Shown here one piece after another: positions 19,335 through 35,902 of a DNA stretch of 37,105 bases (position 1 is its first letter; the number at the start of each line of letters is the position of its first letter). Made by a program: the position numbers and the translations under genes. Under the pieces are notes generated by a model. That model ran no database searches, was not told the DNA's origin, and saw only the letters and a list, made by a program, of their open reading frames with translations. The stretch comes from an uncultured Chitinophagaceae bacterium (GTDB lineage Bacteria > Bacteroidota > Bacteroidia > Chitinophagales > Chitinophagaceae), in NCBI GenBank assembly GCA_937981995.1, contig CALJNC010000056.1, forward strand, positions 1 to 37,105, read 5' to 3'.

Positions 19335-19347
19335 GTGGAGCTGGCGG
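19335..19347. repeat. Left attachment site (13-bp core), ssrA 3' remnant
   Basis: GTGGAGCTGGCGG, identical to 35903-35915. On the minus strand it reads CCGCCAGCTCCAC, which is the last part of the tmRNA T-stem, the acceptor 3' strand and the discriminator. No other ssrA sequence is found on this side. Confidence 0.85.
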
Positions 19348-19464
19348 TTCTACTTAATTAGTTCGTGGTAGTTTTTTTTGGTTTGATTATTATATTTAGA
19401 CTCAATAAATGCAACTACTCAGACCATTTTAGTTCTTTCCAGTTCGCCTTAGTTTGTTACTTTT

Positions 19465-19485
19465 GGGTAAAAATCGGGGTAAAAA
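19465..19485 (+). repeat. Left copy of island-end repeat
   Basis: A 21-nt element containing AAATCGGGGTAAAAA (19471-19485) that matches 35839-35859 at 18 of 21 positions in the same orientation. It lies just upstream of the integrase start, 117 bp inside the left attachment core. It is also internally repetitive (GGGTAAAAA twice). A binding site for the integrase or an accessory factor is a plausible role. Confidence 0.6.
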
Positions 19486-19493
19486 TACTATAT

Positions 19494-20822
19494 ATGGCTG
19501 TAACATTCGTAATCAATAAAGGCAAGAAACTTAAGCAGAGTATTTATGTTCGGGTTAGAGACTCCATGGGCAAAGAGGCTAAACGGGCGATTCCTGTTCA
19601 AATAAATAAAACGGATTGGAGTAAGAAGGTTGGGGGCTTAATTAAACCTAGTGCATTTTCTAGTGCTATAGAACTTAATGCTAAGATGCGTTCGTTAAAA
19701 AGTAGAATAGAGGAAGAGGTTAGGATTTTAAAAATAGAAGGGCAAGCTATTAATTCCAAATGGCTACAAGGGTTAATCAATAATCACTTTGACCTTACTT
19801 CAAGCGATGCAGAAGATAAGACAATATTTCTTATACCATTCGTACAAAATTTTATTGAAAAGCTACCAAATAGAATTGTAGAAAAGAAAAATAAGCCAGT
19901 CTCTAAAGGAACCATTAAAGCATATAAAACAACTTCGAATAAGTTAAGACGATTTGAAGAGTATAGAAGAGTAGTAGATAAAGAGAAATCACTCAGGATT
20001 AAGATTAAAGAAGTAGATGATAGTTTTTTTTATCGCTTTAAAACTTTCTTAATGGATGAGTATAAAAATGGTATAAATACAGTTAGGGGAGAGCTTAAGC
20101 AACTAAAGTCAATGCTTTATGAAGCTCAAAGGCAAGGGTTAAAAGTTGACTCCTCATTTAAAAGGGTAAAAATCATTTATGCAAAAACTAATCATTTCTC
20201 CATAACCTATGAAGAATTTAATAAGGTGTATGAGCTAGATGTAAGTGAGAATGTTAGACTACAAAATGTCAAAGATATTTTTGTCATAGGTTTTTTTACA
20301 GGATTGCGCATTTCTGATATTTTACGCTTGAATACTTCTATGATAACCTCCGATAATTGTATTAGAATTAAACCAAAGAAAACGGACGATGTAGTTGTAT
20401 TAATTCCAATTAGTAAGCAGGTGCAGGAGATACTTGATAGAAGAAATGGAGCATTCCCAAGAAGTATCTCTGACGTTAAGTTTAACTTATACTTGAAAGA
20501 GTTAACTAAACTATCTGGATTAAATAGATTAGTAGAAGTTGATAAAGCTTTTGTTGAAGAGGCAAAAAACTTTGAGGGTAAAGTAGTTAAAATTCGAAAG
20601 AGTATACGAGGGGAATATCCAATTCATGAGGTTATTTCAAGTCATGTAATGAGAAGAAGTTTCTGTTCGTATTTTTATGGTAAACTTGATACTTTAACTA
20701 TAATGAGAATAAGCGGACACTCTACTGAAAAGCAATTTTTAGATTATGTTCGTATTACACCTGAAGAGCATGCCAATAAGATGAAAGAGCTTTGGTTAAA
20801 AATGGGATTGATAATAAATTAA
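19494..20822 (+). CDS. Tyrosine recombinase (integrase)
   Basis: A 442-residue phage-type integrase that presumably inserts and excises this element at ssrA. An N-terminal arm-binding domain with the Bacteroidota pattern (KKLKQSIYVRVRDSMGK) comes first, then a helical core-binding domain (about 110-235), then the catalytic domain. The full active-site set is visible: R272 in FTGLRISDI, Lys near 296 in KPKKTDD, H384 and R387 in SSHVMRRSF, H409 in ISGHST and the nucleophile Y418 in FLDYVRI. The start at 19494 gives the usual MAVTFVINKGKKLK beginning. A Met at 19365 would add 43 unrelated hydrophobic residues and overlap the end repeat. The gene faces inward from the left attachment site. Confidence 0.94.
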   Translation: MAVTFVINKGKKLKQSIYVRVRDSMGKEAKRAIPVQINKTDWSKKVGGLIKPSAFSSAIELNAKMRSLKSRIEEEVRILKIEGQAINSKWLQGLINNHFDLTSSDAEDKTIFLIPFVQNFIEKLPNRIVEKKNKPVSKGTIKAYKTTSNKLRRFEEYRRVVDKEKSLRIKIKEVDDSFFYRFKTFLMDEYKNGINTVRGELKQLKSMLYEAQRQGLKVDSSFKRVKIIYAKTNHFSITYEEFNKVYELDVSENVRLQNVKDIFVIGFFTGLRISDILRLNTSMITSDNCIRIKPKKTDDVVVLIPISKQVQEILDRRNGAFPRSISDVKFNLYLKELTKLSGLNRLVEVDKAFVEEAKNFEGKVVKIRKSIRGEYPIHEVISSHVMRRSFCSYFYGKLDTLTIMRISGHSTEKQFLDYVRITPEEHANKMKELWLKMGLIIN

Positions 20823-20832: not shown

Positions 20833-21558
20833 ATGGACTTGACGGAGAAGATAACGTTTATAGCACTAAGGGAATTGCTATTAGGTAGTAAGCTTGAGAA
20901 TACCTTAAATAGAACAATTGATTTGACCGATGAGAGTTCATTCGGTTCAAAATTTGAATTAGATAGCATTATTGAAGGAGGTCATAATAAGTTTCGATTA
21001 GAGTTTGATAAAATTATTGAAGAGAATGATTTAAAGTTTAAAACAGCATTTTCAATTTTCAAGAATTTTTTAGATAAAACTTTGAATAGCACAGATAATT
21101 GGGTTAGAAAGTATCCCAGAAGCAAAGATTTGCTGCATTATATATATCGCAGACATAAAGAATTTTTAGACAATATGACGTTGCAGTATTTTCCTGAACT
21201 GCTAGAAAGCAATAAGATAGTGTCGGAAGATGAGGAGGTAGATTCTGCAGAATTTGATGAGTTTGGCAGGAATAGTAAATTAATTGAAAAGTATTTGGTG
21301 CTAAAAGAATTGGGTATTATCGATTTACTAATTAGCCGTTCGAAAGAGTGTAATCCGTCAAGTGGGAATCCAAATGAATCAAAGCTGGGTAGATTGTTGA
21401 ATTATCTGTTATTAGAAAATGACAGACCCAACAGCACCACTTTGGGAAAGTACATAAGCAGGTATGGTTATAAAGATAAGGTGGCAAGCTCAGTGCCGTC
21501 TGATATAACTTCAGCGAAAGTCAATGACGTACTTTCCAAGTTTAATTTAAAGAAATAG
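20833..21558 (+). CDS. Hypothetical protein of the island
   Basis: A 241-residue protein that I do not recognise. It is charged and mostly helical, with no signal peptide or membrane segment. The middle (about 75-140) is rich in aromatic and basic residues (DLLHYIYRRHKEFLDN), followed by an acidic stretch (SEDEEVDSAEFDEFG). The end (KLGRLLNYLLLENDRPNS, later VNDVLSKFNLKK) could be a small helical DNA-binding region, but this is a guess. It starts 10 bp after the integrase and precedes the small HTH gene, a position often occupied by regulators of excision or mobilisation. Confidence 0.75.
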   Translation: MDLTEKITFIALRELLLGSKLENTLNRTIDLTDESSFGSKFELDSIIEGGHNKFRLEFDKIIEENDLKFKTAFSIFKNFLDKTLNSTDNWVRKYPRSKDLLHYIYRRHKEFLDNMTLQYFPELLESNKIVSEDEEVDSAEFDEFGRNSKLIEKYLVLKELGIIDLLISRSKECNPSSGNPNESKLGRLLNYLLLENDRPNSTTLGKYISRYGYKDKVASSVPSDITSAKVNDVLSKFNLKK

Positions 21559-21590: not shown

Positions 21591-21615
21591 ATTGTCCTAC
21601 GTGTATTTGTCTCAT

Positions 21616-21852
21616 ATGACAGATAACAATTTTCAGGACACAATAAACGAAATTTTAGAGAAATACCAGTTAGGTATACAAGACTTAGTTTGGCTTACAG
21701 CTGTGGAAGCCAGAGACTATCTAAAAATAGGTAAAACTAGTTTTCACGAAAGACAAAATCAAGGGTTAATACTTCCTTTCTATGAAGGTACAAAGCCGAC
21801 ATATTTAAAGGCACAACTAGCTGAATATAAACTATCACTTCTCAACAAATAG
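21616..21852 (+). CDS. Small HTH protein, excisionase-like
   Basis: A 78-residue protein. The C-terminal 50 residues (VWLTAVEARDYLKIGKTSF, then HERQNQGLILPFYEG and KPTYLKAQLAEYK) have the layout of a MerR/excisionase-type helix-turn-helix with a short wing. Small proteins of this type next to integrases usually act as directionality factors or regulators. I used the ATG at 21616; a TTG at 21592 would add eight residues and run into the flanking operator repeats. The stop is 2 bp before the start of the polymerase-like gene, so the two are probably co-translated. Confidence 0.75.
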   Translation: MTDNNFQDTINEILEKYQLGIQDLVWLTAVEARDYLKIGKTSFHERQNQGLILPFYEGTKPTYLKAQLAEYKLSLLNK

Positions 21853-21854
21853 GA

Positions 21855-23219
21855 ATGGATAGTTTTAAAGTAGTTCTCCCGCAAGGGATAGATTGGGATG
21901 CTCTTTTTAAGAATGAAAAGCCTCAAATTAAGGAGTTAGCCAAAATGATAGTTTCTTGTATTTATTTGAAAATTACATATAAATGGGATGCTCACATAAA
22001 TAAAGGGACAGATGAGCCATTTGATTTAAACGATGTTCAAATCCGTTTAAATGCTAAAATTTTAAAAGAAACCTATGGGTCAAATTATAAGAAAGTGCTA
22101 AGCATATTGCACCAAAAAGTACTTTTTAAATATCCTTATACACCTACCAGATGGGTAAATGGTAAAAAAGAACAAGGAAAAAGTTTTGGATACTCTATAA
22201 ATCCGAAATGGTGGTATTGCCAACCTGAAATTCATGAGATAAATTGTGGATATACAATTATCAAGAATTCAATTAAGCGACTAAGAAAACCAGTAAGCTC
22301 TGCTGAGCGTAAAGCTTTTAATAAGTATAAACACACCTATAAGTTTTACAAAGCAGGTAGATTCTCAGTTGATTTTGATGAACTTCAGCAATTTTTAGAC
22401 GAGAGTGATATGCATATTGCAGATAAATTCTACAGCCTTTCTATAGCTTGTAAATTGGTAAATGGTGATTATCGAGCCGTCAATCATACAGAAACTGATG
22501 GTCGTTTTCATACCATAATAACCCAACTGCCAAAAAATATCAGAAAATTCATAAAATATGACAATCAGCCCCTTGCAGAGGTTGATTTGTCTAATTCAGT
22601 ACTCTATATACTGGCTAGCATATTGAATAACACAACACTATATAATAAGCTAGTAAACTCTAATATACTATATATGATTCCAGATTTGCTCAAAAGTGTT
22701 GATATTATTGAATTAGAGCTATTTTGTAAAAAGTGTTTTACTGGTAGTATCTATGACGTTTTTATTGATAAGCTTATTCCAAAATATACTTCAAAAGAAT
22801 TATTTAGCTATAGTGCCAAGACATGTAAAGAGGTCTATAATTACAGCTGCGAGATGAATCGTGCTATCATTAAAAAGAGGTTACTGGCGTTCCTGTTTGC
22901 CCCTAATGGAGATTATGAGGATGTAGGAGAAGCCTTTGAAGAATTATTCCCTAAAGTGTATGGGCTAATCTGGAAGCTAAAGGAAAAAAATCATAAATGG
23001 ATTTCACATTTATTATTTAGCTGCGAGGCGTATTGTATGCATAAATTTTCCAAAGAGATTAATAATTCAAAGGGAGGTAGGATGCCGTTGTTTTTATTGC
23101 ATGATTGTATCGTTATGCAAAAAGGAAATGAAGAATATGTAGAAGAGTATTTACTAAAATCCTTTCAAAAATTCACTGGACAACCGCCCACTCTTAAAAT
23201 TAAATATTGGGATGAATAG
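21855..23219 (+). CDS. Compact family-A polymerase-like protein
   Basis: A 454-residue protein without a name known to me. From about residue 213 it follows the order of family-A DNA polymerase motifs. TDGRFHT (214-220) and LPKNIRKFI (225-233) match the TGR...LPNxR lead-in. Motif A is LAEVDLSNS with D244. A motif B-like helix has R336 and K340 (RAIIKKRLLAFLF), and is followed by FEELFPKVYGLIWKLKEK as in the O-helix region. Motif C is LLHDCIVMQ with H416 and D417. The C-terminal PPTLKIKYW resembles the end of Pol I. No exonuclease domain is present. The first ~190 residues look like a winged-helix region (VLSILHQKVLFKYPY) and may bind DNA. I infer a replication protein of the element. Polymerase activity is not proven, and the metal-binding Asp pair is the main support. 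Confidence 0.72.
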   Translation: MDSFKVVLPQGIDWDALFKNEKPQIKELAKMIVSCIYLKITYKWDAHINKGTDEPFDLNDVQIRLNAKILKETYGSNYKKVLSILHQKVLFKYPYTPTRWVNGKKEQGKSFGYSINPKWWYCQPEIHEINCGYTIIKNSIKRLRKPVSSAERKAFNKYKHTYKFYKAGRFSVDFDELQQFLDESDMHIADKFYSLSIACKLVNGDYRAVNHTETDGRFHTIITQLPKNIRKFIKYDNQPLAEVDLSNSVLYILASILNNTTLYNKLVNSNILYMIPDLLKSVDIIELELFCKKCFTGSIYDVFIDKLIPKYTSKELFSYSAKTCKEVYNYSCEMNRAIIKKRLLAFLFAPNGDYEDVGEAFEELFPKVYGLIWKLKEKNHKWISHLLFSCEAYCMHKFSKEINNSKGGRMPLFLLHDCIVMQKGNEEYVEEYLLKSFQKFTGQPPTLKIKYWDE

Positions 23220-23518: not shown

Positions 23519-24184
23519 TTATTTCTTTCTGGTTAAAGAAAAATTATGTACTTCACCATTTACTTCAACTTGAATATCAACCTCATTAACTTTTTTCTTT
23601 TTAAAGATGAGAAATCCAGTTATTGATTTTTCAGGCTCCAAAGTTTCTTTAAATAAATAATACTCCCTGAAATAGTCAACCTGATTCATTGTGCGATTTA
23701 CATTAGCCATATGATTTTGCTGTATGACTTGATTATCAATTCTTTGTTCTTGAGCACTCTTAGTGTTTTTGCCGAGGTATGAATTTCTTGTATTTTCCAT
23801 TGTATTACTCAAGGGTTGTGCTGCACTGCTAACAGCTGACCATTGTACGGCTCTTTTTAATTTCTTCATTACTTTATCGCCTGTCATATGCTCTATTATA
23901 GCGTCTGTTTTATAGTTTGTTACAACAATAGATTCTGGTGTAAAATTGAAGGTAGAATTGCTTTCATTATAAACTGATATATCCATTCTAAGCCCTGCAA
24001 GCATTTCTCCAAAAGAAACGATAACTGTTGAATTATTTTGGGTACTTATTAAATAGGGAATACCGTTTTGATACTTGACATTAATAGTTGTATCCGCAGG
24101 TTCGTAATATTTTAAGATTTGATATTGCGCCTTCAATATTTGGCTTGAAATAATAATGAGAGTAAGGAGTAATAACTTTTTCAT
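23519..24184 (-). CDS. Hypothetical exported protein
   Basis: A 221-residue protein with a clear signal peptide (KKLLLLTLIIISSQILKAQ) that I cannot assign to a family. The mature part starts with YQILKYYEPADTTIN and has a beta-rich first half. A Gln/Asn-rich central linker follows (about 135-165, EQRIDNQVIQQNHMANVNRTMNQ), and the protein ends in a short beta region (ITGFLIFKKKKVNEVDIQV). It is convergent with the polymerase-like gene and divergent from the next exported protein across 288 bp. No lipobox, so it is likely periplasmic or outer-membrane-associated. Confidence 0.78.
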   Translation of the reverse strand: MKKLLLLTLIIISSQILKAQYQILKYYEPADTTINVKYQNGIPYLISTQNNSTVIVSFGEMLAGLRMDISVYNESNSTFNFTPESIVVTNYKTDAIIEHMTGDKVMKKLKRAVQWSAVSSAAQPLSNTMENTRNSYLGKNTKSAQEQRIDNQVIQQNHMANVNRTMNQVDYFREYYLFKETLEPEKSITGFLIFKKKKVNEVDIQVEVNGEVHNFSLTRKK

Positions 24185-24426
24185 AATGTACTTTTTTCAA
24201 AATGAAATATAATATTCAGAACATTGGGACTAAAGGAAGATTTTATTCTTTAGTGTATTTTAACAAGAAAATTATTTAGTTGGATAAACAATCCTTTTTA
24301 CTTTAATTGGTCTAGCTATTTATAATCTTTCTAGTTCTATAGATAATCATTAAACTTAAAGTTGTTTAGTCAAAGAATTAAGGTGCTGGATAAAGTATTC
24401 ACGATTTTAGTATTGTAAAATTTTAA

Positions 24427-24434
24427 TACCTTTG
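24427..24434 (+). promoter_or_regulatory. Candidate -7 promoter element
   Basis: TACCTTTG matches TAnnTTTG and lies 38 bp upstream of the start of the 125-aa exported protein. The -33 box is unclear. Confidence 0.4.
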
Positions 24435-24472
24435 ATTAAACCTTTTAATCTGGTATTTAAAACGTTTATATA

Positions 24473-24850
24473 ATGAAATACTTAACTCTACTATTAATAT
24501 GTGCATTCGGCACCAGTTCTTTAGTCGCTCAAACTCAATTTGAATACACTGGTGAATCTAGTTACTTCACTCCAGAGCAAATGAAGAATGATTCACCTCC
24601 TGAAAGTAAATTCAAGGTAAAAGTCTTGTATTATGAGGCAAAGAAGAAGTACGAGATTTATAGCCCCATAAAGCTTGTATATACCCTTTATAAAGGGGAT
24701 TTTATTAAAGATTTAGGCTCTTCTCAACTTTATAAAGGACAAGTCTATGAAAATGAAAAATGGTATACTGTGAAAATAGCTTTTCACTTTTATGATTTTG
24801 CTGTCATATTTGATGATGGTAGTACTTATTACTACAGCCATTACGAGTAA
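24473..24850 (+). CDS. Hypothetical small exported protein
   Basis: A 125-residue protein with a signal peptide (KYLTLLLICAFGTSSLVAQ). The mature part is rich in Tyr, Lys and Glu, with segments such as EYTGESSYFTPEQMKND and YYEAKKKYEIYSP and a C-terminal FDDGSTYYYSHYE. The predicted fold is a small beta barrel or sandwich. I recognise no family. It has its own candidate promoter and is not closely linked to either neighbour. Function unknown. Confidence 0.75.
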   Translation: MKYLTLLLICAFGTSSLVAQTQFEYTGESSYFTPEQMKNDSPPESKFKVKVLYYEAKKKYEIYSPIKLVYTLYKGDFIKDLGSSQLYKGQVYENEKWYTVKIAFHFYDFAVIFDDGSTYYYSHYE

Positions 24851-25124
24851 TCGCTATAATTTATAGTTTTTAAATTGAACTCGTTTGGTTAGAGCAGAAG
24901 AATATCGAATACTGCCTCCGTAGTTACTAGCTTATGGTAAGATTTTAGTTTTGTTAGAAACCTATTTTAAGAGTTTATAGTTAAAAGCCGTCTCTCGTTA
25001 TTTTATTTGTTGGCTCTTAAATGCTATCATAGCCTTATCTACAGCTGACACCGCTAACCGTTATTAAAAAGTTTTTAGAAGAGAAAAACTAGAAATCATA
25101 TCTAATTCCGAATATATTTATTGA

Positions 25125-25802
25125 ATGAAAATTCTCTATATTTTATTTACAGCTTTTATTATTCAATTATTTTGTTTGTCAACCAATGCTCAGAATTTAA
25201 GGAAGTATGAATGTGATGGTATTTCAAGTGTTATGATTGAGGATGTTTACTATAAATTCAAGGAATACGGGTTACCTGTTTATATCCAAGGTGACAGTAA
25301 AGATTTTCTGTTATATATGATTAATAAATTCTCAAGACAGGCGATAACCCAAATTTGCATAGAATCTTGGGTACGTTCATCTGAGAATGGGTTTGAAAAT
25401 TCTTATCAGTCTTTTAAAAAAGAAATTTGTTATTTGCCCAAACAAGGGTATAAAGATAATTATCAAGTATTGGAAATAATAAGACAAATGCATCGTTCAT
25501 GTATAGCAAATGGCGGTTATAAGAAAAGAAGTAAAAGGCAAGGTTCAACCAGCACCAAAACAAACAACTCTTATAAACCTCAAGAGAAGTCTTATGAGAA
25601 ACCTTGTAAATATTTGAAAGTAACAAGCTATAAAGCATATTTCCACAATCTGCCAAAAAGTACGACCAAAAGAAAAGCTTACTTGGTTATAGGAACGTGT
25701 ATTAAACCCCTAGATTATAAAAACGGTTACGCATATATAGTCTTCAAGAATACTAGAGGTCAAGTCTCAAAAGGTTGGATTAGTCTCGATGATGTCGAAT
25801 AA
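25125..25802 (+). CDS. Exported protein with C-terminal SH3-like domain
   Basis: A 225-residue protein with a signal peptide ending near NAQ. An N-terminal region of unknown fold contains three Cys (KYECDG, ITQICIES, FKKEICYLPKQGY). A Ser/Lys/Asn-rich linker follows (about 130-155). The last ~65 residues, CKYLKVTSYKAYFHNLP through KGWISLDDVE, have the layout of a bacterial SH3 domain with its final GWI strand. Such domains often bind cell wall or peptides. The next gene begins inside the last codons in another frame, so the pair is probably co-expressed. Confidence 0.75.
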   Translation: MKILYILFTAFIIQLFCLSTNAQNLRKYECDGISSVMIEDVYYKFKEYGLPVYIQGDSKDFLLYMINKFSRQAITQICIESWVRSSENGFENSYQSFKKEICYLPKQGYKDNYQVLEIIRQMHRSCIANGGYKKRSKRQGSTSTKTNNSYKPQEKSYEKPCKYLKVTSYKAYFHNLPKSTTKRKAYLVIGTCIKPLDYKNGYAYIVFKNTRGQVSKGWISLDDVE

Positions 25803-25833
25803 TAACTTTAATCAAATGAATAAGAAATTACAG

Positions 25834-26340
25834 ATGAAAAAAATTCTAAGTTTAGTAGCCTTAATTACAATTTCGTTTAATTCTTTTGCTCAAGTTTCAG
25901 TTGAAAGAAATGGCGACTATCCTATTTGGGACTGTAAGAACTTTTCTCAAGTTCAATTTATGTGGGTTTATTATTCCTTTGCCAAAGATGGGCATTTCGA
26001 AATTGTAGAGGCAAAATCAGGTAAAACATTGGGTTCCGATGCCTTGTTGAATGAATTAGCTCAAATAGACCGATTTGATTTACCTGTAATATGCGAAAAA
26101 GTTCATAAGGATTGTATGTTCAAAACAAAAATTGAATTATATCATACCTTCATAAATGATGTAGGTTTAATTAGTGAAGAGGACTACTTGAAATTTTATG
26201 ATTACTTAGAAATTATTCATTTTTATCATAACGCAGTTTGGAATGCTATTGTTCGAAAAGGAAACACTCCAGTTACAAAGTATAATACTAAAAGGTCAAA
26301 GCAATACTTAAAAAGAAAAAACAACTATGTTCTTGATTAA
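25834..26340 (+). CDS. Hypothetical exported protein
   Basis: A protein of about 168 residues with a signal peptide (KKILSLVALITISFNSFAQ). The mature part shares its general layout with the N-terminal half of the preceding protein: an early WDCKNFSQVQFMWVYYSFAKDG resembles YECDGISSVMIEDVYYKFKEYG there, and both continue with a region carrying two further Cys. The two genes may therefore be diverged relatives, one with and one without the SH3 domain. I used the Met at 25834, where the signal peptide begins. A Met at 25789 would overlap the upstream gene. Function unknown. Confidence 0.72.
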   Translation: MKKILSLVALITISFNSFAQVSVERNGDYPIWDCKNFSQVQFMWVYYSFAKDGHFEIVEAKSGKTLGSDALLNELAQIDRFDLPVICEKVHKDCMFKTKIELYHTFINDVGLISEEDYLKFYDYLEIIHFYHNAVWNAIVRKGNTPVTKYNTKRSKQYLKRKNNYVLD

Positions 26341-26352
26341 GTTCCAATTCAA

Positions 26353-26706
26353 TCACCTTATTTGTAATTGATACCTTCCTTTTATATTTCTGTGGTAGAA
26401 TTTTCCTAGAGAACTCGCTGATTTAAATCTTTTCCAAACGCTATAAGGCACAGCTTGGAAAGTGTAGTCTTTTCTGTCTGTAGTCAAAATCATAAAGCCA
26501 ATATTCCCGTTACAACTATAGAATTTTGCTTTTCTAATCCATGAGCTATTAGAGCAATTTGCAGATTCTTTAATTTTAAAAGAACTTCTTTTTATTATTG
26601 ACGTAGCTTGATTGTATGAGTTAAAACTATTTGGAATGTTTTCACATGATTGACCACATGCGTTGAGCATTATTGATAGAAGAAGGAGTGTAAAATAGTT
26701 TTTCAT
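26353..26706 (-). CDS. KTSC-domain lipoprotein
   Basis: A lipoprotein of about 117 residues: a signal sequence with lipobox LNAC (FTLLLLSIMLNACGQSC), a short region with two further Cys, and a C-terminal KTSC domain (KDYTFQAVPYSVWKRF, then SASSLGKFYHRNIKGRY). KTSC is a small domain that appears alone or fused to other proteins, with no established activity. A longer reading from 26802 lacks a signal peptide at its start and overlaps the upstream gene, so I chose the Met at 26706. It is the last of three closely spaced exported proteins downstream of hsdR. Confidence 0.78.
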   Translation of the reverse strand: MKNYFTLLLLSIMLNACGQSCENIPNSFNSYNQATSIIKRSSFKIKESANCSNSSWIRKAKFYSCNGNIGFMILTTDRKDYTFQAVPYSVWKRFKSASSLGKFYHRNIKGRYQLQIR

Positions 26707-26725
26707 TGAAAGGGTGTTATATAAA

Positions 26726-27154
26726 TTATTCAAATATTTTACTATACCACTTAGAAACATCATCTCTAATAAACTCATGATATTTATAAATTGTAAGCGC
26801 AAGATTGAAATCTGCTCTTTTGGGTTTGTATTCGTTTAAGGTAAAGTAACCATAAAAATTGCCCTCTTTATCAACTACAACAGGAGGATTAGTACCATAT
26901 TCATTCCAAGGACAATTAGTATTGTAATCATTTCCGTAAGTTCCATATTCGTTCCAAATAGATTTTGCATTATAGCTATTTCCATACGTGCCGTAGTCAT
27001 TCCAAATTGAATTACTATTATAGCTATCACAATTAAGGCAACCTAAGTAAACATCATGATTGCGTCCACCATAGAGGTGTAAAGTTTGCCCAGAACAATT
27101 AAGGCTAGCCAAAATGAATAGAATTATTCCTGCAATATTTATCTTGAATATCAT
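26726..27154 (-). CDS. Exported WNEYG-repeat protein
   Basis: A 142-residue exported protein (hydrophobic start INIAGIILFILASLNCSGQ, which could be a lipobox-like LNC). The mature part starts LHLYGGRNHDVYLGCLNC and is followed by three ~16-residue repeats: YNSNSIWNDYGTYGNS, YNAKSIWNEYGTYGND and YNTNCPWNEYGTNPP. It ends with VVDKEGNFYGYFTLNEY. This YGG...LGCLNC + WNEYG repeat layout belongs to a widespread family of unknown function. The CLNC pair could bind metal. It lies 24 bp after the CxxC lipoprotein gene and 19 bp before the KTSC gene. Confidence 0.8.
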   Translation of the reverse strand: MIFKINIAGIILFILASLNCSGQTLHLYGGRNHDVYLGCLNCDSYNSNSIWNDYGTYGNSYNAKSIWNEYGTYGNDYNTNCPWNEYGTNPPVVVDKEGNFYGYFTLNEYKPKRADFNLALTIYKYHEFIRDDVSKWYSKIFE

Positions 27155-27178
27155 TTTTTCAAAGTTATAAAAATTTAT

Positions 27179-27667
27179 TTACCCTTCACCATTACAATCC
27201 TCACAAACATTTGTGCCTTCTCCCTCACAATCTTCGCATTCAATTCTACCTTCCCCTGAGCAATCCTGGCACTCTATTTTACCATAATTGCAATCTCTAC
27301 AAGTTGTCTCTCCGTCGCCATCACATTCATCGCATTCAATTTCGCCGTCACCATCACATTCATCGCATTCCATATCTCTATATGAACCCGTATCATAATC
27401 GTAATCATTCTTCTCACCAGAACCATAACATTCTCTGCATCTAGTCTCTCCATCCCCATCGCACTCGCTACATTCAATTTCTTCTTCCCCATCGCATTCT
27501 GGGCAATTTATTTCTCCTTCTCCTTCACAGGGTTCACATTCTAAAGTTCCTTCTTGTTCGCAATAAGAGCATTCTATTTCACCCTCTCCATCGCAACTAT
27601 CACAATTAAAGTGACAACCTACCGAAGATAAGAAAAGGACAAAAATGAATAAGTATTTGTATCTCAT
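27179..27667 (-). CDS. Lipoprotein with twelve CxxC motifs (DnaJ zinc-finger-like)
   Basis: A 162-residue, very acidic protein. It has a lipoprotein signal (YLFIFVLFLSSVGC, lipid-attached C18), then twelve CxxC motifs. Most are in the form CxxCxGxG, the repeat of the DnaJ central zinc-finger region (for example CDECDGDG, CEDCEGEG). DnaJ has four such motifs binding two zinc ions, so this protein could bind up to six. A Tyr/Asp-rich break (DYDYDTGSYRD) divides it into two groups of six. No J-domain or other domain is present. It would sit in the envelope, facing the periplasm or exterior. The start codon is 8 bases from the hsdR stop on the same strand. Function unknown; metal binding, redox or chaperone-like roles are possible. 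Confidence 0.82.
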   Translation of the reverse strand: MRYKYLFIFVLFLSSVGCHFNCDSCDGEGEIECSYCEQEGTLECEPCEGEGEINCPECDGEEEIECSECDGDGETRCRECYGSGEKNDYDYDTGSYRDMECDECDGDGEIECDECDGDGETTCRDCNYGKIECQDCSGEGRIECEDCEGEGTNVCEDCNGEG

Positions 27668-27674: not shown

Positions 27675-30600
27675 CTATACTGCTTTATTCAATAATTGCT
27701 TCACCATTGAGAAAACCATAGTATTGAACTCTTCCTTGGCTTCTGGGTTGTCATTGATTATTTTATAAAAATCAAAATTTGTAGTTACATGCTTCAATAA
27801 TTCATCTTGAGCAATTTTATCACTAGTGATTCTTGCGTTCTGTTCGTCTGAGTGTTCTATTGAGTTGAGCATGTCTTTGTTTTTAGCAACTCCACTTACA
27901 ATACTTTCTGCCATTTGCCTTACCTTGTCAGCATCTTCAAATTCAGTGCCATAACGGTCATTAAATGTTTGCAGTATATTGGATAGTTGGTCAATCTCTG
28001 GTTCGTTTACCCCACCTCTCATTTCCGTGGGAATTGGTTGTAAATCATCACCTGGCTCCATAACAATATTTGTAGTTGCTTCCAATTGTAAACGGTAACT
28101 GTCCATATCTATATTGTCCAAAATGCCTTGTGCAAAATCAGGTTCGGCTTGTGTACCTAGTTTATTTTGCAGGTGGTTTAGGAATATATACAAACGTTCT
28201 AGATAAACATTTTCAAAATCTACAATTTGAGACAGGAAGATATATAAACGTACATAAGTTTTAACCTTGACTCTAAAATCAACTTGCTGCTCTTCTTCCA
28301 AATCCTCTCTGAAAATAGCACTAGATTGGTCTAAAATGTCGTGTAGTTGGTCAACTGGGACATTGGCTAGTATCTTATTTGAAAAACCTTCTACCTGTTC
28401 TCTAGAGTAGACTTGATAGTTATCTAATGCATCTTGTAAGTCAAACAATTTATTTGGGTCTGTAGATTCTCCTAGAATAGTATTCTCGAAATAAGGTTTA
28501 AAAGCTTTTTCTGTATCTTCAGAAGAGTTGGCAAAATCCAGAACAAAAGTCTCTTCTTTTTGTGGGTGACTTCTGTTTAATCTAGATAAAGTTTGAACTG
28601 CATTTACTCCTCCTAATTTTTTATCTACATACATTGTATGGAGTAGGGGTTGGTCAAAACCTGTTTGAAATTTATTGGCAACTAATAGAAATTTGTATTC
28701 GTCTTTTTCAAATTCATCTGGAATATTTCCACTTGGAAATCCGTTTAAACTTGACTCTGTTTCTCCTTTAATTTCACCAGAAAAACCAACAATCGCTTTG
28801 TAAGGACTATTGATTGCTCTTAAATGTGCATCAAAGGCATGTTTATATTGTACTGCTTTAGCTCTGCTACTTGTTACAAGCATAGCCTTAGCTTTTCCTC
28901 CTATTTTTTTCTTTCGAATAACGTTATCAATAAAATGGTCAATTATTAAGATTGATTTCTTTTTGATAGCGTGGTCGTGTCCTTCAACATAGGCTTTTAA
29001 TTTTTTCTGCGCCTTTTTCTTATCGTACTCTGGGTCGTCTTCTATTTTTTTGAGTAAAGCATAATAGCTTTGGTATGTTGTATAGTTTAGTAATACATCT
29101 TTTATAAAACCTTCTTCTATTGCTTGTTTCATGGAGTATAAATGAAAAGCTCGATGTTTGGTTTTTCCGTCTTCTTCAAAGGGTTCTCCAAATAATTCTA
29201 AGGTTTTGTTTTTGGGAGTTGCAGTAAAAGCAAAATAACTTGCATTGGGTAGCAATTTTCTAGCCTTTACCATTGCTCGAATAAAATCTTCTCCAGTTAC
29301 TTCAGTATTTTCTGTTTCGTCATAATTTTCTAAGTCATTTTGAAGTTCCTCTTCGTCTGTAACTTTGGCAAGTGTTTCATTTAATTTCCGAGCCATTTGT
29401 CCACTCAAACTACTATGAGCTTCATCTATAATTATTCCAAAGTTATTGGAAGGCAATTCTCCAATGTCTTCAACTATATGTGGAAATTTTTGGATTGTGG
29501 TAATAATGATTTTTTTACCTTCTTCTAAAGCAGATTTCAATTGCTTACTCCCTTCTGTTATTGCCTGTACTACACCTTTTACTTGTTGATATTGCTTTAT
29601 ATTCTCTCGTATTTGCTTGTCTAAAACTCTGCGGTCAGTGATTACTATAACTGTGTCAAAAATGGTTTGAGAACCTGATTTGTCATGCAATCCTACTAGT
29701 TGATGAGCCAACCAAGAAATTGAATTGCTTTTACCCGAACCTGCCGAATGCTGGATTAAATACTTTTGACCTGCTCCTTTCTCCTGAGCATCTTGTAATA
29801 TATTAGTTACAGCAGTTAGTTGATGAAAACGTGGGAAGATTAACTTTTTGGTTTTCTTTATTTTTTTCTTGCCTTTAGCGTCTTTGTATTCTTTTTCTTC
29901 TGTGATTAACTGAGCATAATTTTGTAAAATATTGGTAAGGGTATCCTTAGTTAAAATCTCTTTCCAGAGGTAGTCTGTTTTTATACCTCCATTTGGTTCA
30001 TTCCCTGCTCCGTTATTATTTCCCTTATTAAATGGCAAAAAGTAAGATTTGAAAGATTGTAATTGAGTACACATCCAAACCTCTTCTGTATCTACCGCAA
30101 AATTTACTATCATTCGACCTAATCGAAATATTTCTTCCTTTGGGTCTCGGTCTTTTTTATATTGCTTTATGGCATGTTTTACATTCTGTTTGGTCAATTC
30201 GTTTTTAAGTTCAAAACTTATAATGGGCAAACCATTGATAAAACTAACTACGTCTAAAGAGTTTTTGTTTTTGTTGGAATAATATACTTGACGAATTACA
30301 GAGAATATATTTGCTTGATAAAGAGTTGTATTCTTGGCGTTATATGCAGAAACAGGTTTGTCATAAAATAATCGAATTTTAGTATCTGTAAAGCCATCTG
30401 TGACTCCTTTTCGTAATACTTGAATGACTCCTTTTAGCTTTATTTGGTCATTTATTCGTTTTAGTATTTTTTGCTCATATAACTCTTTATGATAATGTTT
30501 TAGTTTTTCTACTGCTTTGGGTTGAGTAGTTTCTAAAAATTGAAATAGGAGCTCGCTATCTACACAGTTTATACTATCGTAATCTTTTGAAGTGCGAAGC

Positions 30601-30680
30601 ACATAACCATTACTGTCTACCAAATGGTCTACAATGTGCTTTTCAAAGCCGTTTTCTTTGGTATTAGTGGTTTTACTCAT
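27675..30680 (-). CDS. hsdR: Type I restriction enzyme R subunit
   Basis: A 1001-residue HsdR, the motor and nuclease subunit that translocates and cuts unmodified DNA. The nuclease domain has D143 and E157-x-K159 (ISFELKN), the spacing seen in EcoR124I. The helicase domain has Walker A HSAGSGKSNS at 311-320, DEAH at 419-422, and motif III-like FAFTATP. The later helicase domain includes ANKFQTGFDQPLL and LSRLNRSHPQ. A C-terminal helical region that binds HsdM follows. All key residues are intact, so it should be active. It is the last restriction gene of the cluster and is separated from the AlbA_2 gene by an array of 22-bp repeats. Confidence 0.95.
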   Translation of the reverse strand: MSKTTNTKENGFEKHIVDHLVDSNGYVLRTSKDYDSINCVDSELLFQFLETTQPKAVEKLKHYHKELYEQKILKRINDQIKLKGVIQVLRKGVTDGFTDTKIRLFYDKPVSAYNAKNTTLYQANIFSVIRQVYYSNKNKNSLDVVSFINGLPIISFELKNELTKQNVKHAIKQYKKDRDPKEEIFRLGRMIVNFAVDTEEVWMCTQLQSFKSYFLPFNKGNNNGAGNEPNGGIKTDYLWKEILTKDTLTNILQNYAQLITEEKEYKDAKGKKKIKKTKKLIFPRFHQLTAVTNILQDAQEKGAGQKYLIQHSAGSGKSNSISWLAHQLVGLHDKSGSQTIFDTVIVITDRRVLDKQIRENIKQYQQVKGVVQAITEGSKQLKSALEEGKKIIITTIQKFPHIVEDIGELPSNNFGIIIDEAHSSLSGQMARKLNETLAKVTDEEELQNDLENYDETENTEVTGEDFIRAMVKARKLLPNASYFAFTATPKNKTLELFGEPFEEDGKTKHRAFHLYSMKQAIEEGFIKDVLLNYTTYQSYYALLKKIEDDPEYDKKKAQKKLKAYVEGHDHAIKKKSILIIDHFIDNVIRKKKIGGKAKAMLVTSSRAKAVQYKHAFDAHLRAINSPYKAIVGFSGEIKGETESSLNGFPSGNIPDEFEKDEYKFLLVANKFQTGFDQPLLHTMYVDKKLGGVNAVQTLSRLNRSHPQKEETFVLDFANSSEDTEKAFKPYFENTILGESTDPNKLFDLQDALDNYQVYSREQVEGFSNKILANVPVDQLHDILDQSSAIFREDLEEEQQVDFRVKVKTYVRLYIFLSQIVDFENVYLERLYIFLNHLQNKLGTQAEPDFAQGILDNIDMDSYRLQLEATTNIVMEPGDDLQPIPTEMRGGVNEPEIDQLSNILQTFNDRYGTEFEDADKVRQMAESIVSGVAKNKDMLNSIEHSDEQNARITSDKIAQDELLKHVTTNFDFYKIINDNPEAKEEFNTMVFSMVKQLLNKAV

Positions 30681-30688
30681 TCTATTAA

Positions 30689-30798
30689 ATATCTGATTTA
30701 TGTCTAATAAATGTCTAATTTAAGTCTAATAAATGTCTAACTTAACTCTAATAAACATCTAGTTTAAGTCTAATAAATGTCTAATTTAACTTTATTAA
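30689..30798. repeat. 22-bp tandem repeat array (five units)
   Basis: Five consecutive 22-bp units: 30689-30710, 30711-30732, 30733-30754, 30755-30776 and 30777-30798, with partial units on both sides. Each unit consists of two similar halves, TGTCTAATTTA and AGTCTAATAAA, so GTCTAA recurs about every 11 bp, one turn of DNA. The array fills the gap between the AlbA_2 gene stop and the hsdR start and begins 8 bp from the hsdR ATG. It is not CRISPR-like (no spacers). Confidence 0.85.
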
Positions 30799-30809
30799 AT
30801 GTCTAAATG

Positions 30810-32468
30810 TTAGCTCTTAGACATTTTCCATATTTTACCATTAGGCTCAATGAGACCTTGTTTTCTAAGCTTTTGTAAATTATTCTTTATTTTATTCTGT
30901 TTTTGCTTTTCGTCTAAAACGTCAGGAAGTTTAGCTAAAAGGATTCCTTCAAAGTCTGTTTTTTTACCTTCTCCAAACTTATTGAGATAATCCAAAATTA
31001 TCTTCTGACAATATTCATCATCAATGCCTCTTTTCTTAATATAATCTCCCTTTTCTCCAGTAACACTAGCAATAGAGGCGGCAATATGAAAATTAGGTTT
31101 TCTTCCTTCAATTAAGCCTTTACTTTTAAGGTCTTTTATTTCCTGCGGATTAAGAGATTTACCTTTTGCTACTTTATCTAAGGCTATAATATCAGTAAGA
31201 CTTAAGTCGCTCATTGTAGCAAGTTTCTGAGCGTACTTTATATCTACAACTTTACCAGTAATAGTAACCTTTACTTTTTCATCAAAAATATCATAATCAG
31301 GCAACGGGAAATATTTTCTTTTCTGAATCAGGAACATTTTTTTTATACCATTTCCTATAGTATCTATCATGTTAAGATTAACCATCGCATTTGCCAAAAA
31401 ACGATTTCTGTATTTAGATTCAGGAGTATCGCTAATTACTACTTTTTCTACATTTGACGGAATGAACTTGCCCAAGTTACTAAAAATCAATTGACCGTCT
31501 TCATTTTCTACAATTATGATTTTTCCAGCTAAAGAGTAGTCTTGGTGAGCAATACAATTGTTTAAAGCTTCTCTGATAATATATGGGTCATATTGGTCAA
31601 CTTCTTCAGGGAACAATGAGCCATCAGAAATATATCGATACTTTAGATTTCTAATTTTAGAATTAGCTTTTTCTGAACTAAGAATTAATGGGCAGCTAAA
31701 GTGTTCATAATCTTTTTCCAAATTATCCTTGTCTTTTAATATCCAAGTTATCTTACAAGTGGAAGGGGTTAAAAAATGTTCAGACTCTGGCTTGCCCAAT
31801 AGCAGGATGGCAGTTCTTGTAATTTTCCCTTCAATAGTAACCTTTGCCTTATTTAAAAAAGTCTCATCTGACCAACTATCAATATCATCTACAAGATGTG
31901 GGTTCTTAGTTTTATAAGATTGGCGTGCTTTTTCAATGGCTTCCTTTGACAAATCAGCTAGTGTAGCACTTTCAATAATTTCAATACTCCAATCTGTACT
32001 AGTAACTTGTGTTCGTATCCGTTCAATTTCTTCAATATTTAAAGGTTGAAGTTCCTCGTCATCTCTGCCGTAATAATGTCCTTTCCAAGCTATAGGTATG
32101 CCTTTGGGTGCAGCAGGAATTTCAAAAACAATAACACGACCTTTGGGGTCTTTAATTTCGTGAATTTCCTTAAAAGTAATACGGTTGGTTGTGTGATTTG
32201 CTACTTCAGATTTTAAGCTATGCAAATCTGACGGCTTGGGTCTAAACTGAGTGTCATTAAAAGATTTGTCACTATCCTTAATACCAAAAATTAAATAGGC
32301 TACCGCTTGCCCTTTTAGATTAGCTTCATTACTTAAAGCTGAAAAGTATTTACCTATCTTATTAAAATCATAATTTCTATTCGCTTCCTTAAACTCCACT
32401 ATCTCATTCTCATAGCCTTGCGCTATAAGCTCTTGTAATTTTTTTTGTATTTCGACATTCTCTCCCAT
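30810..32468 (-). CDS. AlbA_2-domain / ATPase-type protein in the restriction locus
   Basis: A 552-residue protein. The N-terminal AlbA_2 (Schlafen-type) domain has NEIVEFKEA at 21-29, then FSALSNEANLKGQAVAYLIF at about 42-61, and an IVFEIP strand. The middle contains REALNNCIAHQDYS at 299-312 and GQLIFSNLGKF, then NGIKKMF, typical of the GHKL/HATPase_c_4 region in RecG-like AlbA_2 proteins. The C-terminal part looks like winged helices. Proteins of this type often accompany type I restriction systems and other defence genes, but their role is unclear: regulation or an additional defence activity. It sits between the 116-aa gene (1-bp gap) and hsdR. Confidence 0.85.
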   Translation of the reverse strand: MGENVEIQKKLQELIAQGYENEIVEFKEANRNYDFNKIGKYFSALSNEANLKGQAVAYLIFGIKDSDKSFNDTQFRPKPSDLHSLKSEVANHTTNRITFKEIHEIKDPKGRVIVFEIPAAPKGIPIAWKGHYYGRDDEELQPLNIEEIERIRTQVTSTDWSIEIIESATLADLSKEAIEKARQSYKTKNPHLVDDIDSWSDETFLNKAKVTIEGKITRTAILLLGKPESEHFLTPSTCKITWILKDKDNLEKDYEHFSCPLILSSEKANSKIRNLKYRYISDGSLFPEEVDQYDPYIIREALNNCIAHQDYSLAGKIIIVENEDGQLIFSNLGKFIPSNVEKVVISDTPESKYRNRFLANAMVNLNMIDTIGNGIKKMFLIQKRKYFPLPDYDIFDEKVKVTITGKVVDIKYAQKLATMSDLSLTDIIALDKVAKGKSLNPQEIKDLKSKGLIEGRKPNFHIAASIASVTGEKGDYIKKRGIDDEYCQKIILDYLNKFGEGKKTDFEGILLAKLPDVLDEKQKQNKIKNNLQKLRKQGLIEPNGKIWKMSKS

Positions 32469-32469
32469 A

Positions 32470-32820
32470 TTAGAACTTCAAATTTAACCTTTCTACTTCA
32501 TCTTGTATTTCAGTAAGTAATAAAATACGATTTTGCCTTGCTAAGTCAGGGTGAATCCAAAAACGTGCTTTGTCTTGAAGTTGATTTGCTAAGTCTTGGT
32601 CGATTAAGCGTGTTGCCTGAGCAGCATGATTCCAAAAATCTGAAAGTTCTTGATTAGGAATGTACTCTCCCTCCTGATTTCGTAAATAGTCATAAGTATG
32701 CGACCAAGCAGTGTGAATTGAAGCAATTGCTTCATTGACTCTTACCTTATGTTTGTCACTATAGGCTAATAGTTTATCTATCAACCAATTTAATAATTTT
32801 ATATCTGCAATTACGCTCAT
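32470..32820 (-). CDS. Hypothetical protein in the restriction operon
   Basis: A 116-residue, mostly helical protein without signal peptide. Segments include IKLLNWLIDKLLAYSDKHKVR, SIHTAWSHTYDYLRNQEGEY, FWNHAAQATRLIDQDLANQL and a C-terminal LLLTEIQDEVERLNLKF. I do not recognise a named family. It overlaps hsdS by 4 bases and is separated from the AlbA_2 gene by one base, so it is translated within the operon. A small regulatory or antitoxin-like role is possible but not supported directly. Confidence 0.8.
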   Translation of the reverse strand: MSVIADIKLLNWLIDKLLAYSDKHKVRVNEAIASIHTAWSHTYDYLRNQEGEYIPNQELSDFWNHAAQATRLIDQDLANQLQDKARFWIHPDLARQNRILLLTEIQDEVERLNLKF

Positions 32821-33566
32821 TCTGGACTTATTTCAATATTTTTTTTACTTACTATTGCAAGTTCTTTTTCAATATTAATAATCGTTTCATTATTAGTATT
32901 TATTTCAATTTTACCAAAAACGGCATTAAATATTAGGGATTCTAAATATTCTTTTAATAAACCAGTTTTGGGGTTCGTTTTTCCAAAAATAAGGGAGTTG
33001 TATTCTTTAAGAATTTTTATTTGCTTTTTCTTTAGTTCAATGAAGTTTACAATCTTATTTTGTTCTTCAAGCGAAGGTCTTAAACAAGGGATATTATAAA
33101 ATTTATCAGAATATAAACGAAGTCTACTTTCTATAATTCCTGTAGATTTTCGTTTAAATTCAGCCTTATAAACTTCGGTTTTAAATAGATGTTCATAATA
33201 AATTGGGTTTGTCTTTTCTCTGAATTGATAAACACAATATGCAGGACTAATAATGCCTTCATAATTTGAAACGGCGATAGAGCCATTCCAAGCTAGCATG
33301 ATATTATTTACTAGTTGATTCTTTCGTACTTTTTTATAGCCAATTAATGATTTGGCATTGGTTAAATTATCATTTTTATTTTTTAGTTTATCCTTTTTTT
33401 GTTGCACTCCCGTATATTGGGAAAGGGATAATAATTCTTCATCTCCAGATTCCGTTTTCTCAGAAATTTCATATAAAATATGTTTTACTTTTTGAACTTT
33501 CCAGTTCTTAGGTATTTCACCAAGCCAAGAATATTTTGTTGGCACTAAATTATTTTTATATATCAT
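32817..33566 (-). CDS. hsdS: Type I restriction specificity subunit, half-size
   Basis: A 249-residue HsdS that selects the DNA target. It contains one target-recognition domain, beginning YSWLGEIPKNWKVQKVKHIL, and one conserved helical spacer (CLRPSLEEQNKIVNFIELKK, then KQIKILKEY). The usual HsdS has two of each and 400-450 residues. The remaining ~55 residues after the spacer are not a second recognition domain. Half-size S subunits are known to dimerise and then recognise a symmetric bipartite site. The start overlaps the hsdM stop by 4 bases, and the stop overlaps the 116-aa gene. Confidence 0.88.
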   Translation of the reverse strand: MIYKNNLVPTKYSWLGEIPKNWKVQKVKHILYEISEKTESGDEELLSLSQYTGVQQKKDKLKNKNDNLTNAKSLIGYKKVRKNQLVNNIMLAWNGSIAVSNYEGIISPAYCVYQFREKTNPIYYEHLFKTEVYKAEFKRKSTGIIESRLRLYSDKFYNIPCLRPSLEEQNKIVNFIELKKKQIKILKEYNSLIFGKTNPKTGLLKEYLESLIFNAVFGKIEINTNNETIINIEKELAIVSKKNIEISPE

Positions 33567-35329
33567 TTTAATACGTTCTTTAACAAGCCTAAGGTTTTTG
33601 ATTCTAGTTTTTCAATATCTTCAAGAATATTGGATAAATCCCTATAATTTCCCGCATTATGAAATTTTTCGATAAAGTTTATCGAATATCCAATTTTGAT
33701 AGATTTTTCATCTGGTTTAGCATTTGGGGTATATGTTAAAACTTCATTTTCTAAATATTCATTAATATCTTCATTCAGTGGGATATATTCAAAATCTTTA
33801 AAATCATTTCCTGTTTTAAAATCGTTTTCAGAGTGCTTTATTTTTATTGAATAATAACCAAATTCATTATTGGTGAATATCTTAGAATGCTCATTATCGT
33901 TTTCATTTAAATAGAGACTTACTATCTCTTTTATATGTTTAGAGCTTAAATCATTTTTTTTGTGACCTAAAGCTTTTGTTCTTTTCTTAAAAAAGCCATC
34001 AGCCTTTATAAGCTGTACTTTTCCTTTCCTGCTTTGTTTTTTCTTATTGCTAAGAATTAGCAAATAGGTAGGTTGTGGCGTGTTGTAAAAAATATCTAAC
34101 GGAAGTGCAATTACAGCTTCAAGTAAATCATTTTCCAACAAGAATTGTCGGATCCCACTTTCTCCACTTCCTGCATCGCCAGTAAATAAAGCAGAACCAT
34201 TATGTACAGATGCAATTCGACTTCCGCCATCCTTGGGATCTTTCATTTTAGAGAGCATGTGTAGCATAAACATTAGTTGTCCATCATTGCTGCGTGAGGT
34301 CAAACATTTTTTTTCTAATTCGCCTTTAAAGTTTTTAATCTCAAGGTTAAATCGAGTATCATTTATTTCAATCTTTTTGGCAGTGCCTACATTAAGTTCC
34401 TTTTGGTCTTCTTTCCAACTTGTTCCATAGGGAGGATTGGTTAGCATAAAATTAAACTTTAAGTTAGGGTCAAAACCATACTTGCTAAGTGTAGAGCCAA
34501 ACTGTATTTTTTCTGGGTCTTCCTCCTTTAGTAACATATCTGATTTGCAAACCGCATACATTTCACCAGTATTTTCTTGACCGTATAAGTGGAATGTTGC
34601 TTTGGATTTTATTTCTCCCTCTTGGTTGGTAGCAAACTTTTTAGATTGAGTAAGCATAGCACCTGAACCAGCACAAGGGTCATAAACTAAGAATGTTCCC
34701 TTTTTTATTTTGTCTTTTACAGGAAGATATACCAAGTGAGTCATTAGTTCAATAATCTCTCTTGGAGTAAAGTGTCGTCCTGCTGCTGCATTAGTTTTTT
34801 CGTTAAACCTACGGATAAGGTCTTCAAACATGTAACCCATTGCCATTGGTGAAATCTTCTGTGGACTTAATTCTACTTTTGGGCTACAAAATTTTTCGAG
34901 TACTGAAAAGGTAATTCCTGTTTCTTCAAAAGTGTCTAGCTGATTTCTAAACTTAAATTTTTGAATTATGTCCTGTACATTTTCTGAAAAGCCATTTAAG
35001 TAATCCTCAAGGTTAGAGTCAATGTTTTTAGGGTCGTCCAACAGCTTTTTCATTGTATAGGGTGAAGTGTTGTAAAACTCTAATCCTGAGCCGTGGTCTT
35101 TACTGGTTAATAATCCAGTAAGATTGTCCATTTTGCTTTTATACTCATTGTAAGTTTCAAGTACAAGGTCTTTAGATGGTTCTAGAGCTAAATCCAAACG
35201 TCTCAATACAGTCATTGGTAGAATAACATCTTGGTATTGATTCTCCAAGTATTTATTAATCAATACATCATCTGCAACTGACCAGATAAAATTGATAATA
35301 GGTTGTAAGCTTTGTGTGTCTAAATTCAT
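33563..35329 (-). CDS. hsdM: Type I DNA methyltransferase subunit
   Basis: A protein of about 588 residues, an N6-adenine methyltransferase that protects host DNA and forms the core of the restriction complex. An N-terminal helical HsdM domain (IINFIWSVADDVL, then LPMTVLRRLDLAL) precedes the catalytic domain. The SAM-binding motif is DPCAGSG at about 217-223, and the catalytic motif is NPPYG at about 298-302. HFTPREIIELM lies just before them. The C-terminal region carries additional helices. I chose the Met at 35329 (MNLDTQSLQPI), which matches the family start. A Met at 35359 adds ten residues. It is the first gene of the restriction operon. Confidence 0.94.
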   Translation of the reverse strand: MNLDTQSLQPIINFIWSVADDVLINKYLENQYQDVILPMTVLRRLDLALEPSKDLVLETYNEYKSKMDNLTGLLTSKDHGSGLEFYNTSPYTMKKLLDDPKNIDSNLEDYLNGFSENVQDIIQKFKFRNQLDTFEETGITFSVLEKFCSPKVELSPQKISPMAMGYMFEDLIRRFNEKTNAAAGRHFTPREIIELMTHLVYLPVKDKIKKGTFLVYDPCAGSGAMLTQSKKFATNQEGEIKSKATFHLYGQENTGEMYAVCKSDMLLKEEDPEKIQFGSTLSKYGFDPNLKFNFMLTNPPYGTSWKEDQKELNVGTAKKIEINDTRFNLEIKNFKGELEKKCLTSRSNDGQLMFMLHMLSKMKDPKDGGSRIASVHNGSALFTGDAGSGESGIRQFLLENDLLEAVIALPLDIFYNTPQPTYLLILSNKKKQSRKGKVQLIKADGFFKKRTKALGHKKNDLSSKHIKEIVSLYLNENDNEHSKIFTNNEFGYYSIKIKHSENDFKTGNDFKDFEYIPLNEDINEYLENEVLTYTPNAKPDEKSIKIGYSINFIEKFHNAGNYRDLSNILEDIEKLESKTLGLLKNVLK

Positions 35330-35396
35330 TAATCTTCTTTTTTGTCCTAAACCAATCAAAAGAGGTTGGGTTTAGTAGACTTTAATTAGGGAGTCT

Positions 35397-35898: not shown

Positions 35899-35902
35899 AT
35901 TT

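Follow-up and report, generated by a model that had tools for sequence, protein, structure and literature searches.

In the window, the 37,105-nucleotide stretch of DNA analysed here, we found an intact open reading frame (21855-23219, + strand, ATG start, zero internal stops) encoding a 454-amino-acid protein that we interpret, with reasonable confidence, as an exonuclease-less, TV-Pol-like family-A polymerase, probably active, that belongs to an integrative element and would start or extend that element's DNA. An earlier sequence-only reading had interpreted the protein correctly at the level of fold but over-claimed in finding no named family with such a layout: the TV-Pols, minimal exonuclease-less superfamily-A polymerases of transposons and viruses (Iyer, Abhiman and Aravind 2008, PMC2579912), fit its description.

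Conservation and predicted fold of the polymerase

The motifs quoted in the sequence-only reading all lie in this open reading frame: TDGRFHT (residues 214-220), LPKNIRKFI (225-233), the motif A aspartate D244, the motif-B-like R336xxxK340, FEELFPKVYG (361-370), the motif C aspartate D417 and PPTLKIKYW (444-452). We aligned the window protein with 79 homologues at 17-29% identity to it (alignment A2, 80 rows), drawn from 98 loci with a polymerase match after setting aside five loci equal in length and score to a kept row (the window's own locus among them), 11 near-duplicates judged by eye on length and score rather than on computed identity, and three short or split genes (L079, L088 and L094). 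In L088 and L094 the polymerase gene lies in two open reading frames, as if broken. Six columns were invariant (D244, S248, Y300, K340, E391 and D417, 80/80 each), followed by R217 and H416 (both 79/80), R230 (76/80) and R336 (70/80, with K in six rows). Because the invariant and near-invariant columns include the TGR-like arginine and motifs A, B and C recognised earlier, the pattern is not a product of chance. The cysteine noted after the HD of motif C is present in the window protein (C418), but it is atypical of the family, which has S in 74/80 rows and C in 2/80.

The window protein departs from its relatives elsewhere as well. Its V249 and L250 are found in no other row of A2 (Q and P, respectively, in 79/80), F388 stands where 76/80 rows have Q, and L414 stands where 72/80 have T. 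It differs at 5 of 22 near-invariant columns, compared to a mean of 0.83 across A2 (three other rows differ at 5 or 6), and its terminal branch measures 1.88 substitutions per site versus a median of 0.59, with support of just 0.22 at the joining node. The long branch, together with changes at columns conserved in nearly all other rows, makes relaxed constraint on the window copy possible. A copy that is decaying or inactive as a polymerase, retaining only a DNA-binding or regulatory role, is nonetheless unlikely in our judgement, as the reading frame is intact and D244, D417, R217, R336, K340, E391 and Y300 are all retained.

Sequence-only methods gave no significant link to known polymerases. 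The window polymerase had no meaningful Pfam, PHROG, NCBIfam or PDB-sequence match, and none to DNA_pol_A (PF00476) at E<=1; PF00476 was absent among the best 25 of the 49 families matched by the 80 members, PDB-sequence searches returned nothing or matches at chance level, and no polymerase in Pfam, NCBIfam or PHROGs reached a convincing score for the window protein or the members. Three of 11 members matched phrog_4756 (function unknown; best E 1.1e-5). The profile match to family-A polymerases envisaged in the sequence-only reading was weak: hhalign against Pol I gave P 0.031 when the whole family was used and 0.015 when its core was used (probabilities of 1.6-3%), although the motifs fell in register and reversed controls scored worse (0.32-0.46 overall, 0.32 and 0.36 in the core comparison). 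With a Pol I profile of 30 Bacteroidota sequences of low diversity (Neff 2.5), we counted only the motif register and the gap to the reversed controls as informative.

Family searches also found no exonuclease domain, as had been claimed. Approximately 140 residues precede the core, a 5'-3' exonuclease domain of the Pol I type is absent, and the window polymerase matched no nuclease family in Pfam, PHROG or NCBIfam. Nuclease-type matches among the 80 members included NUMOD1 (two), GIY-YIG (one) and HNH_3 (one), as well as NUMOD4 and an endonuclease model of group I introns. At L006 (847-2904, + strand), the polymerase relative has a C-terminal GIY-YIG/NUMOD1 extension of the homing-endonuclease type; its length and score are the same as those of L031.

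Structure prediction followed by a fold search gave family-A polymerases and a palm-type fold, bearing out the polymerase I-like palm and fingers proposed earlier. The AlphaFold2 model (79 rows; mean pLDDT 87.8, pTM 0.87) matched 15 PDB chains at E<=1e-3 in Foldseek, every one a family-A DNA polymerase (best 4.5e-5), with low TM-scores (0.25-0.40 by query) and high rmsd, probably because a small core is being compared to larger, differently opened enzymes. All 50 matches listed by VIA-align were family-A DNA polymerases, at Z 13.1-14.7 over 246-263 residues within 141-454, including human Pol theta (Z 14.7; 249 residues, 3.3 A), Bst and apicoplast Pol (14.4) and T7 DNA polymerase (13.7). The two best viral models reached TM 0.65-0.74, the second-best being a 'Putative DNA polymerase I' from an uncultured marine phage (TM 0.65/0.72). 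In the model, strand 238-245 ends at D244, while D417 occupies the turn of hairpin 412-415/418-422, a palm-like placement. Residues 141-454 are predicted to form a family-A polymerase core of palm and fingers, and conservation and predicted fold together support a protein that is probably competent as a polymerase.

We modelled the N-terminal 148 residues alone from an alignment of 76 rows (A4, which also leaves out L012, L021, L030 and L087; pLDDT 87.2). The VIA list for this domain consisted mostly of winged-helix proteins (TFIIE, MarR-type, Fur, ORC regions and a Rep-DNA complex), consistent with the winged-helix N-terminus suggested earlier, but the best Z of 6.4 lies under VIA's own chance level and Foldseek gave no match below E 1. 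We describe residues 1-140 as weakly winged-helix-like, a description drawn from the kind of proteins in the list and not from the Z values.

An integrative element at the 3' end of ssrA

The proposed location of the polymerase in a mobile element is supported by an integrase cluster, direct repeats and the tmRNA gene. A 13-bp sequence, GTGGAGCTGGCGG, occurs as an attL-like core just outside the integrase gene (19335-19347) and as an exact direct repeat, the attR-like core, inside the 3' end of ssrA (35903-35915), so that the repeats bound about 16.6 kb at the ssrA 3' end. The integration target, ssrA (35901-36287, - strand), was detected by Rfam (RF00023, 117.2 bits, E 2.3e-45) and was not called by ARAGORN; its tag reads GESNFAMAA by eye. 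Inside both element ends lies a 15-bp repeat, AAATCGGGGTAAAAA, in two exact copies (19471-19485 and 35845-35859) that are possible arm-type sites.

Four consecutive + strand genes, separated by 10, 33 and 2 bp, end with the polymerase. The first encodes a tyrosine recombinase (integrase; 19365-20822, 485 aa as listed) matching Pfam Phage_int_SAM_5 (3.8e-11) and Phage_integrase (7.3e-7) and a PHROG integrase (6.1e-27); by eye, ATG 19494 is a likelier start than the listed one. A 241-aa ORF (20833-21558) follows; Pfam and PHROG searches gave nothing for it at E<=1, and its one NCBIfam match is at chance level. Some relatives have ORFs of similar size in this place, with little sequence in common (best phmmer E 0.0095 among 24 chosen ORFs). 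Next is an 86-aa HTH-like protein (21592-21852; TTG start as listed, with an ATG eight codons in) that has no Pfam match and matches PHROGs weakly (phrog_7338, E 0.0014; excisionase phrog_4691, E 0.18). All five of the relatives' small upstream ORFs that were scanned, picked by eye from 43 such ORFs, encode HTH_17 proteins alike in position and size to the window's HTH-like protein, which we regard as a candidate excisionase.

Behind the polymerase lie seven small cargo ORFs (23519-27667), of which five have no Pfam match, one has a KTSC domain and one a CxxCxGxG repeat. The latter (27179-27667, - strand) is cysteine-rich and matches Pfam DnaJ_CXXCXGXG and BSD2_CRD; its stretch has a strong GC skew (-0.33). 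A type I restriction-modification (R-M) cluster identified by Pfam and PADLOC (27675-35359, - strand throughout) comprises HsdR (27675-30680), a HATPase_c_4 protein (30810-32468), a 116-aa ORF (32470-32820), HsdS (32817-33566) and HsdM (33563-35359). HsdS has just 249 aa, about half of most specificity profiles matched, and a 22-bp tandem repeat of 5.7 copies (30681-30806) separates hsdR from the HATPase_c_4 gene. Among the element ORFs we recognised neither a primase partner or replicative helicase nor a relaxase or conjugation gene, and near the polymerase there was no clear iteron array, the repeat search giving weak, chance-like families only.

A TPR gene flanks the element on the left. 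We sought it in six genomes (six loci) and scanned L131-L133 for RNAs, finding an adjacent ssrA in one of the three: in this same-genus genome, ssrA is the immediate neighbour of a related TPR gene (56% identical), and neither an integrase nor a polymerase gene separates the two. As ssrA is on the opposite strand in that congener, the locus is not a clean empty site. A second same-genus genome had no ssrA in the stretch scanned, and the gene to the right of ssrA was matched in its own genome only, among 29 genomes (own included). The host's ordinary Pol I is a separate gene on another contig (G000:C18), which rules out the window polymerase as the host Pol I.

Relatives of the polymerase and their neighbourhoods

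With the single protein as query, 10 of 395 sampled Bacteroidota genomes had relatives; with the family profile, 16 of 395 did, counting the window's own genome in both. The weakest profile match has internal stops. A pattern-plus-tblastn scan of one genome per species (84,980 species) yielded at least 79 loci, whose titles we take to be those of Bacteroidota. IMG/VR gave seven matches. When queried with a phage-type member, the phage collection returned six records of 595-735 kb, and viral scans with two phage-type members recovered their own source contigs only. The members in LR756501, LR745206, LR756504 and LR756511 (L012, L140, L141 and L142; 595-735 kb) are about 390-420 aa long.

The protein had been proposed as the likely replication protein, a role that the plasmid data do not support. 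At the limits used (four queries), just 1 of 72,556 plasmid records contained a relative, and that record has its own annotated replication initiation protein, ruling out a general plasmid Rep. The record is a 35-kb plasmid of Hymenobacter qilianensis (L143), which also encodes a ParA family protein.

We then counted neighbours across 86 sources with a called polymerase (85 loci and the window, near-duplicates kept; L021 lacks a called polymerase). A tyrosine recombinase was present in the flank of 68 of 86 sources and missing from 18; in 51 of 86 it was at most five genes upstream, in the same orientation as the polymerase. The distance was two genes upstream in 22 sources, with a single 87-104-aa ORF between in 20, and three genes upstream in 12, five of which (the window, L058, L065, L073 and L082) have a 240-350-aa ORF followed by one of about 90-110 aa. 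At some other loci the recombinase lies behind the polymerase on the opposite strand. At 41 of 64 loci, the 1 kb preceding the integrase start contained a tRNA, versus 119 of 1579 other genes (near-duplicates kept), leaving 23 of 64 loci without one there; 22 of the 41 were tRNA-Ser, largely from one flavobacterial group, and in 9 of the 41 the 3' part of the tRNA is repeated (>=13 nt) elsewhere in the locus.

Proteins encoded nearby included type I, II, IIG and III R-M components and GajB-like helicases (among the best 25 families per table), in a scan of the 90 longest of 145 cluster representatives, a choice that favours large cargo genes. Together with the type I R-M cluster of the window element, these neighbours could place the polymerase in a defence module rather than in element upkeep, an idea also raised for PolA-SSB primases in PMC10061031. 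We consider this very unlikely, because most relatives keep the polymerase close to the integrase, with varying genes behind it.

Likeness to TV-Pols, active site and proposed function

The features published for TV-Pols are two aspartates, an arginine hairpin, RxxxK fingers and no nucleases. They reside in mobile elements that have a resolvase, a lambda-type integrase or a transposase, with R-M genes nearby, and the published species list includes the Bacteroidetes Cytophaga, Polaribacter, Psychroflexus and a Flavobacteriales bacterium (PMC2579912). The window polymerase shares the minimal superfamily-A core with its two palm aspartates and RxxxK fingers and the lack of a nuclease, as well as the mobile-element location, a neighbouring lambda-type integrase and R-M genes, and its occurrence in Bacteroidetes. 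The near-invariant R217 (79/80) is a candidate for the TV-Pol invariant arginine, but DSSP assigns no strand there that would fit a beta-hairpin. Helices 174-183 and 188-202, which precede the palm in the model, are candidates for the two-helix antiparallel thumb. The TV-Pol conserved fingers aspartate is not evident in the window polymerase (the column checked for it, position 301, has E in 60/80 rows and D in 5/80). One TV-Pol subset has an all-helical domain where the window protein appears winged-helix-like by weak fold comparison, and, unlike in TV-Pols, no D5-like helicase fusion or neighbour was recognised in the window element. A search of Microcystis phage Ma-LMM01 with the family profile, run without a positive control, gave nothing at E<=10. 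On the published description of the family, we call the window protein a TV-Pol-like variant that probably belongs to it.

In the weak hhalign alignment, gap-free inside motifs, the active site aligns with that of Pol I as D244/D705, 249/E710, R336/R754, K340/K758, 344/F762, F348/Y766, D417/D882 and 418/E883 (Pol I residues in E. coli numbering). At position 249, where Q fills 79/80 rows, the window protein has V; at 344 (F in 41/80, L in 26/80) it is among the rows with L, and at 348 (F in 58/80, Y in 21/80) it has F. The HDS/HDC of motif C and a non-acidic residue five positions after the motif A aspartate resemble T7 RNA polymerase, and one of the 80 members touches Pfam RNA_pol (E 0.018), so that a single-subunit T7-like RNA polymerase transcribing element genes comes into view. 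We give this highly improbable reading the least credence of all, as the N-terminal model compares poorly to T7 RNA polymerase (Z 4.6); that the 50 VIA matches listed are all DNA polymerases is not counter-evidence, since RNA polymerases may exist at lower ranks.

In Pol I, E710 and F762 discriminate against ribonucleotides, and CcPol retains both equivalents (PMC7581432). With V249 and L344 at these positions in the weak alignment, the window polymerase is expected to discriminate poorly between ribo- and deoxyribonucleotides and thus to tolerate ribonucleotides. Such tolerance would fit a primase-polymerase, the role proposed for TV-Pols in 2008 (PMC2579912). CcPol is counted among the TV-Pols by its authors and acts as a primase together with its partner MP (PMC7581432 and PMC10061031), and its authors called it the sole characterised TV-Pol in 2020 (PMC7581432). 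The CcPol-MP and PolA-SSB primases of SCCmec and other Bacillota elements have in common with the window system a family-A catalytic protein, a site-specific recombinase in the element and perhaps a capacity to prime. In contrast to CcPol-MP, no helicase was recognised beside the window polymerase and family searches with the 241-aa neighbour gave no OB-fold partner. With bacterial Pol I and PolA1-PolA3 the family shares the polymerase fold; unlike Pol I, it has no exonuclease domains and carries HDC or HDS instead of HDE.

In the mechanism we propose, the integrase and the small HTH-like protein would excise the element and also handle its integration. The winged-helix-like N-terminus would grip element DNA or a single-stranded template, and the D244/D417 palm and R336xxxK340 fingers would start and/or extend a DNA strand, either on the excised circle or on incoming single-stranded DNA, leaving host enzymes to complete replication of the element. 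We infer priming, origin recognition and a replication role for the polymerase. The primase activity of CcPol with MP favours priming, whereas the lack of a recognised helicase or partner or of a clear iteron array, and the plasmid carrier's own Rep gene, argue against it. In a bolder version, a single protein of this Bacteroidota branch of family A would both prime and copy the integrative element: its N-terminus would recognise element DNA, and its active site, without either of the sugar-excluding residues of Pol I, would begin chains de novo from ribo- or deoxyribonucleotides, needing no element primase, SSB partner or helicase. This seems to us rather unlikely. We are equally doubtful that the polymerase acts mainly in transfer, synthesising the complementary strand when element DNA arrives single-stranded through natural uptake or hitch-hiking conjugation. 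A second-strand role has been proposed for SCC primases (PMC10061031), and a free-standing priming polymerase would fit an element without a recognised relaxase or conjugation gene; however, the close clustering of the integrase, HTH-like and polymerase genes suggests co-expression with excision.

Exonuclease-less polymerases of this kind are easily overlooked. Searches of Pfam, PHROG and NCBIfam gave nothing meaningful for the window protein, and a 2026 survey of bacterial DNA polymerases names PolA1, PolA2, PolA3 and PolA1-like in its A-family section with no mention of such a group (PMC12926913). In Bacteroidota the family occurs near tyrosine recombinases, often alongside R-M or Gabija-like genes, and it is also present in large phage records; the window copy is distinctive in its V249/L344 active site, HDC motif C and long branch. 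It offers a small enzyme on which to test the reach of the 2008 TV-Pol primase-polymerase proposal, and a handle on the replication or movement of Bacteroidota elements integrated at tRNA and tmRNA genes.
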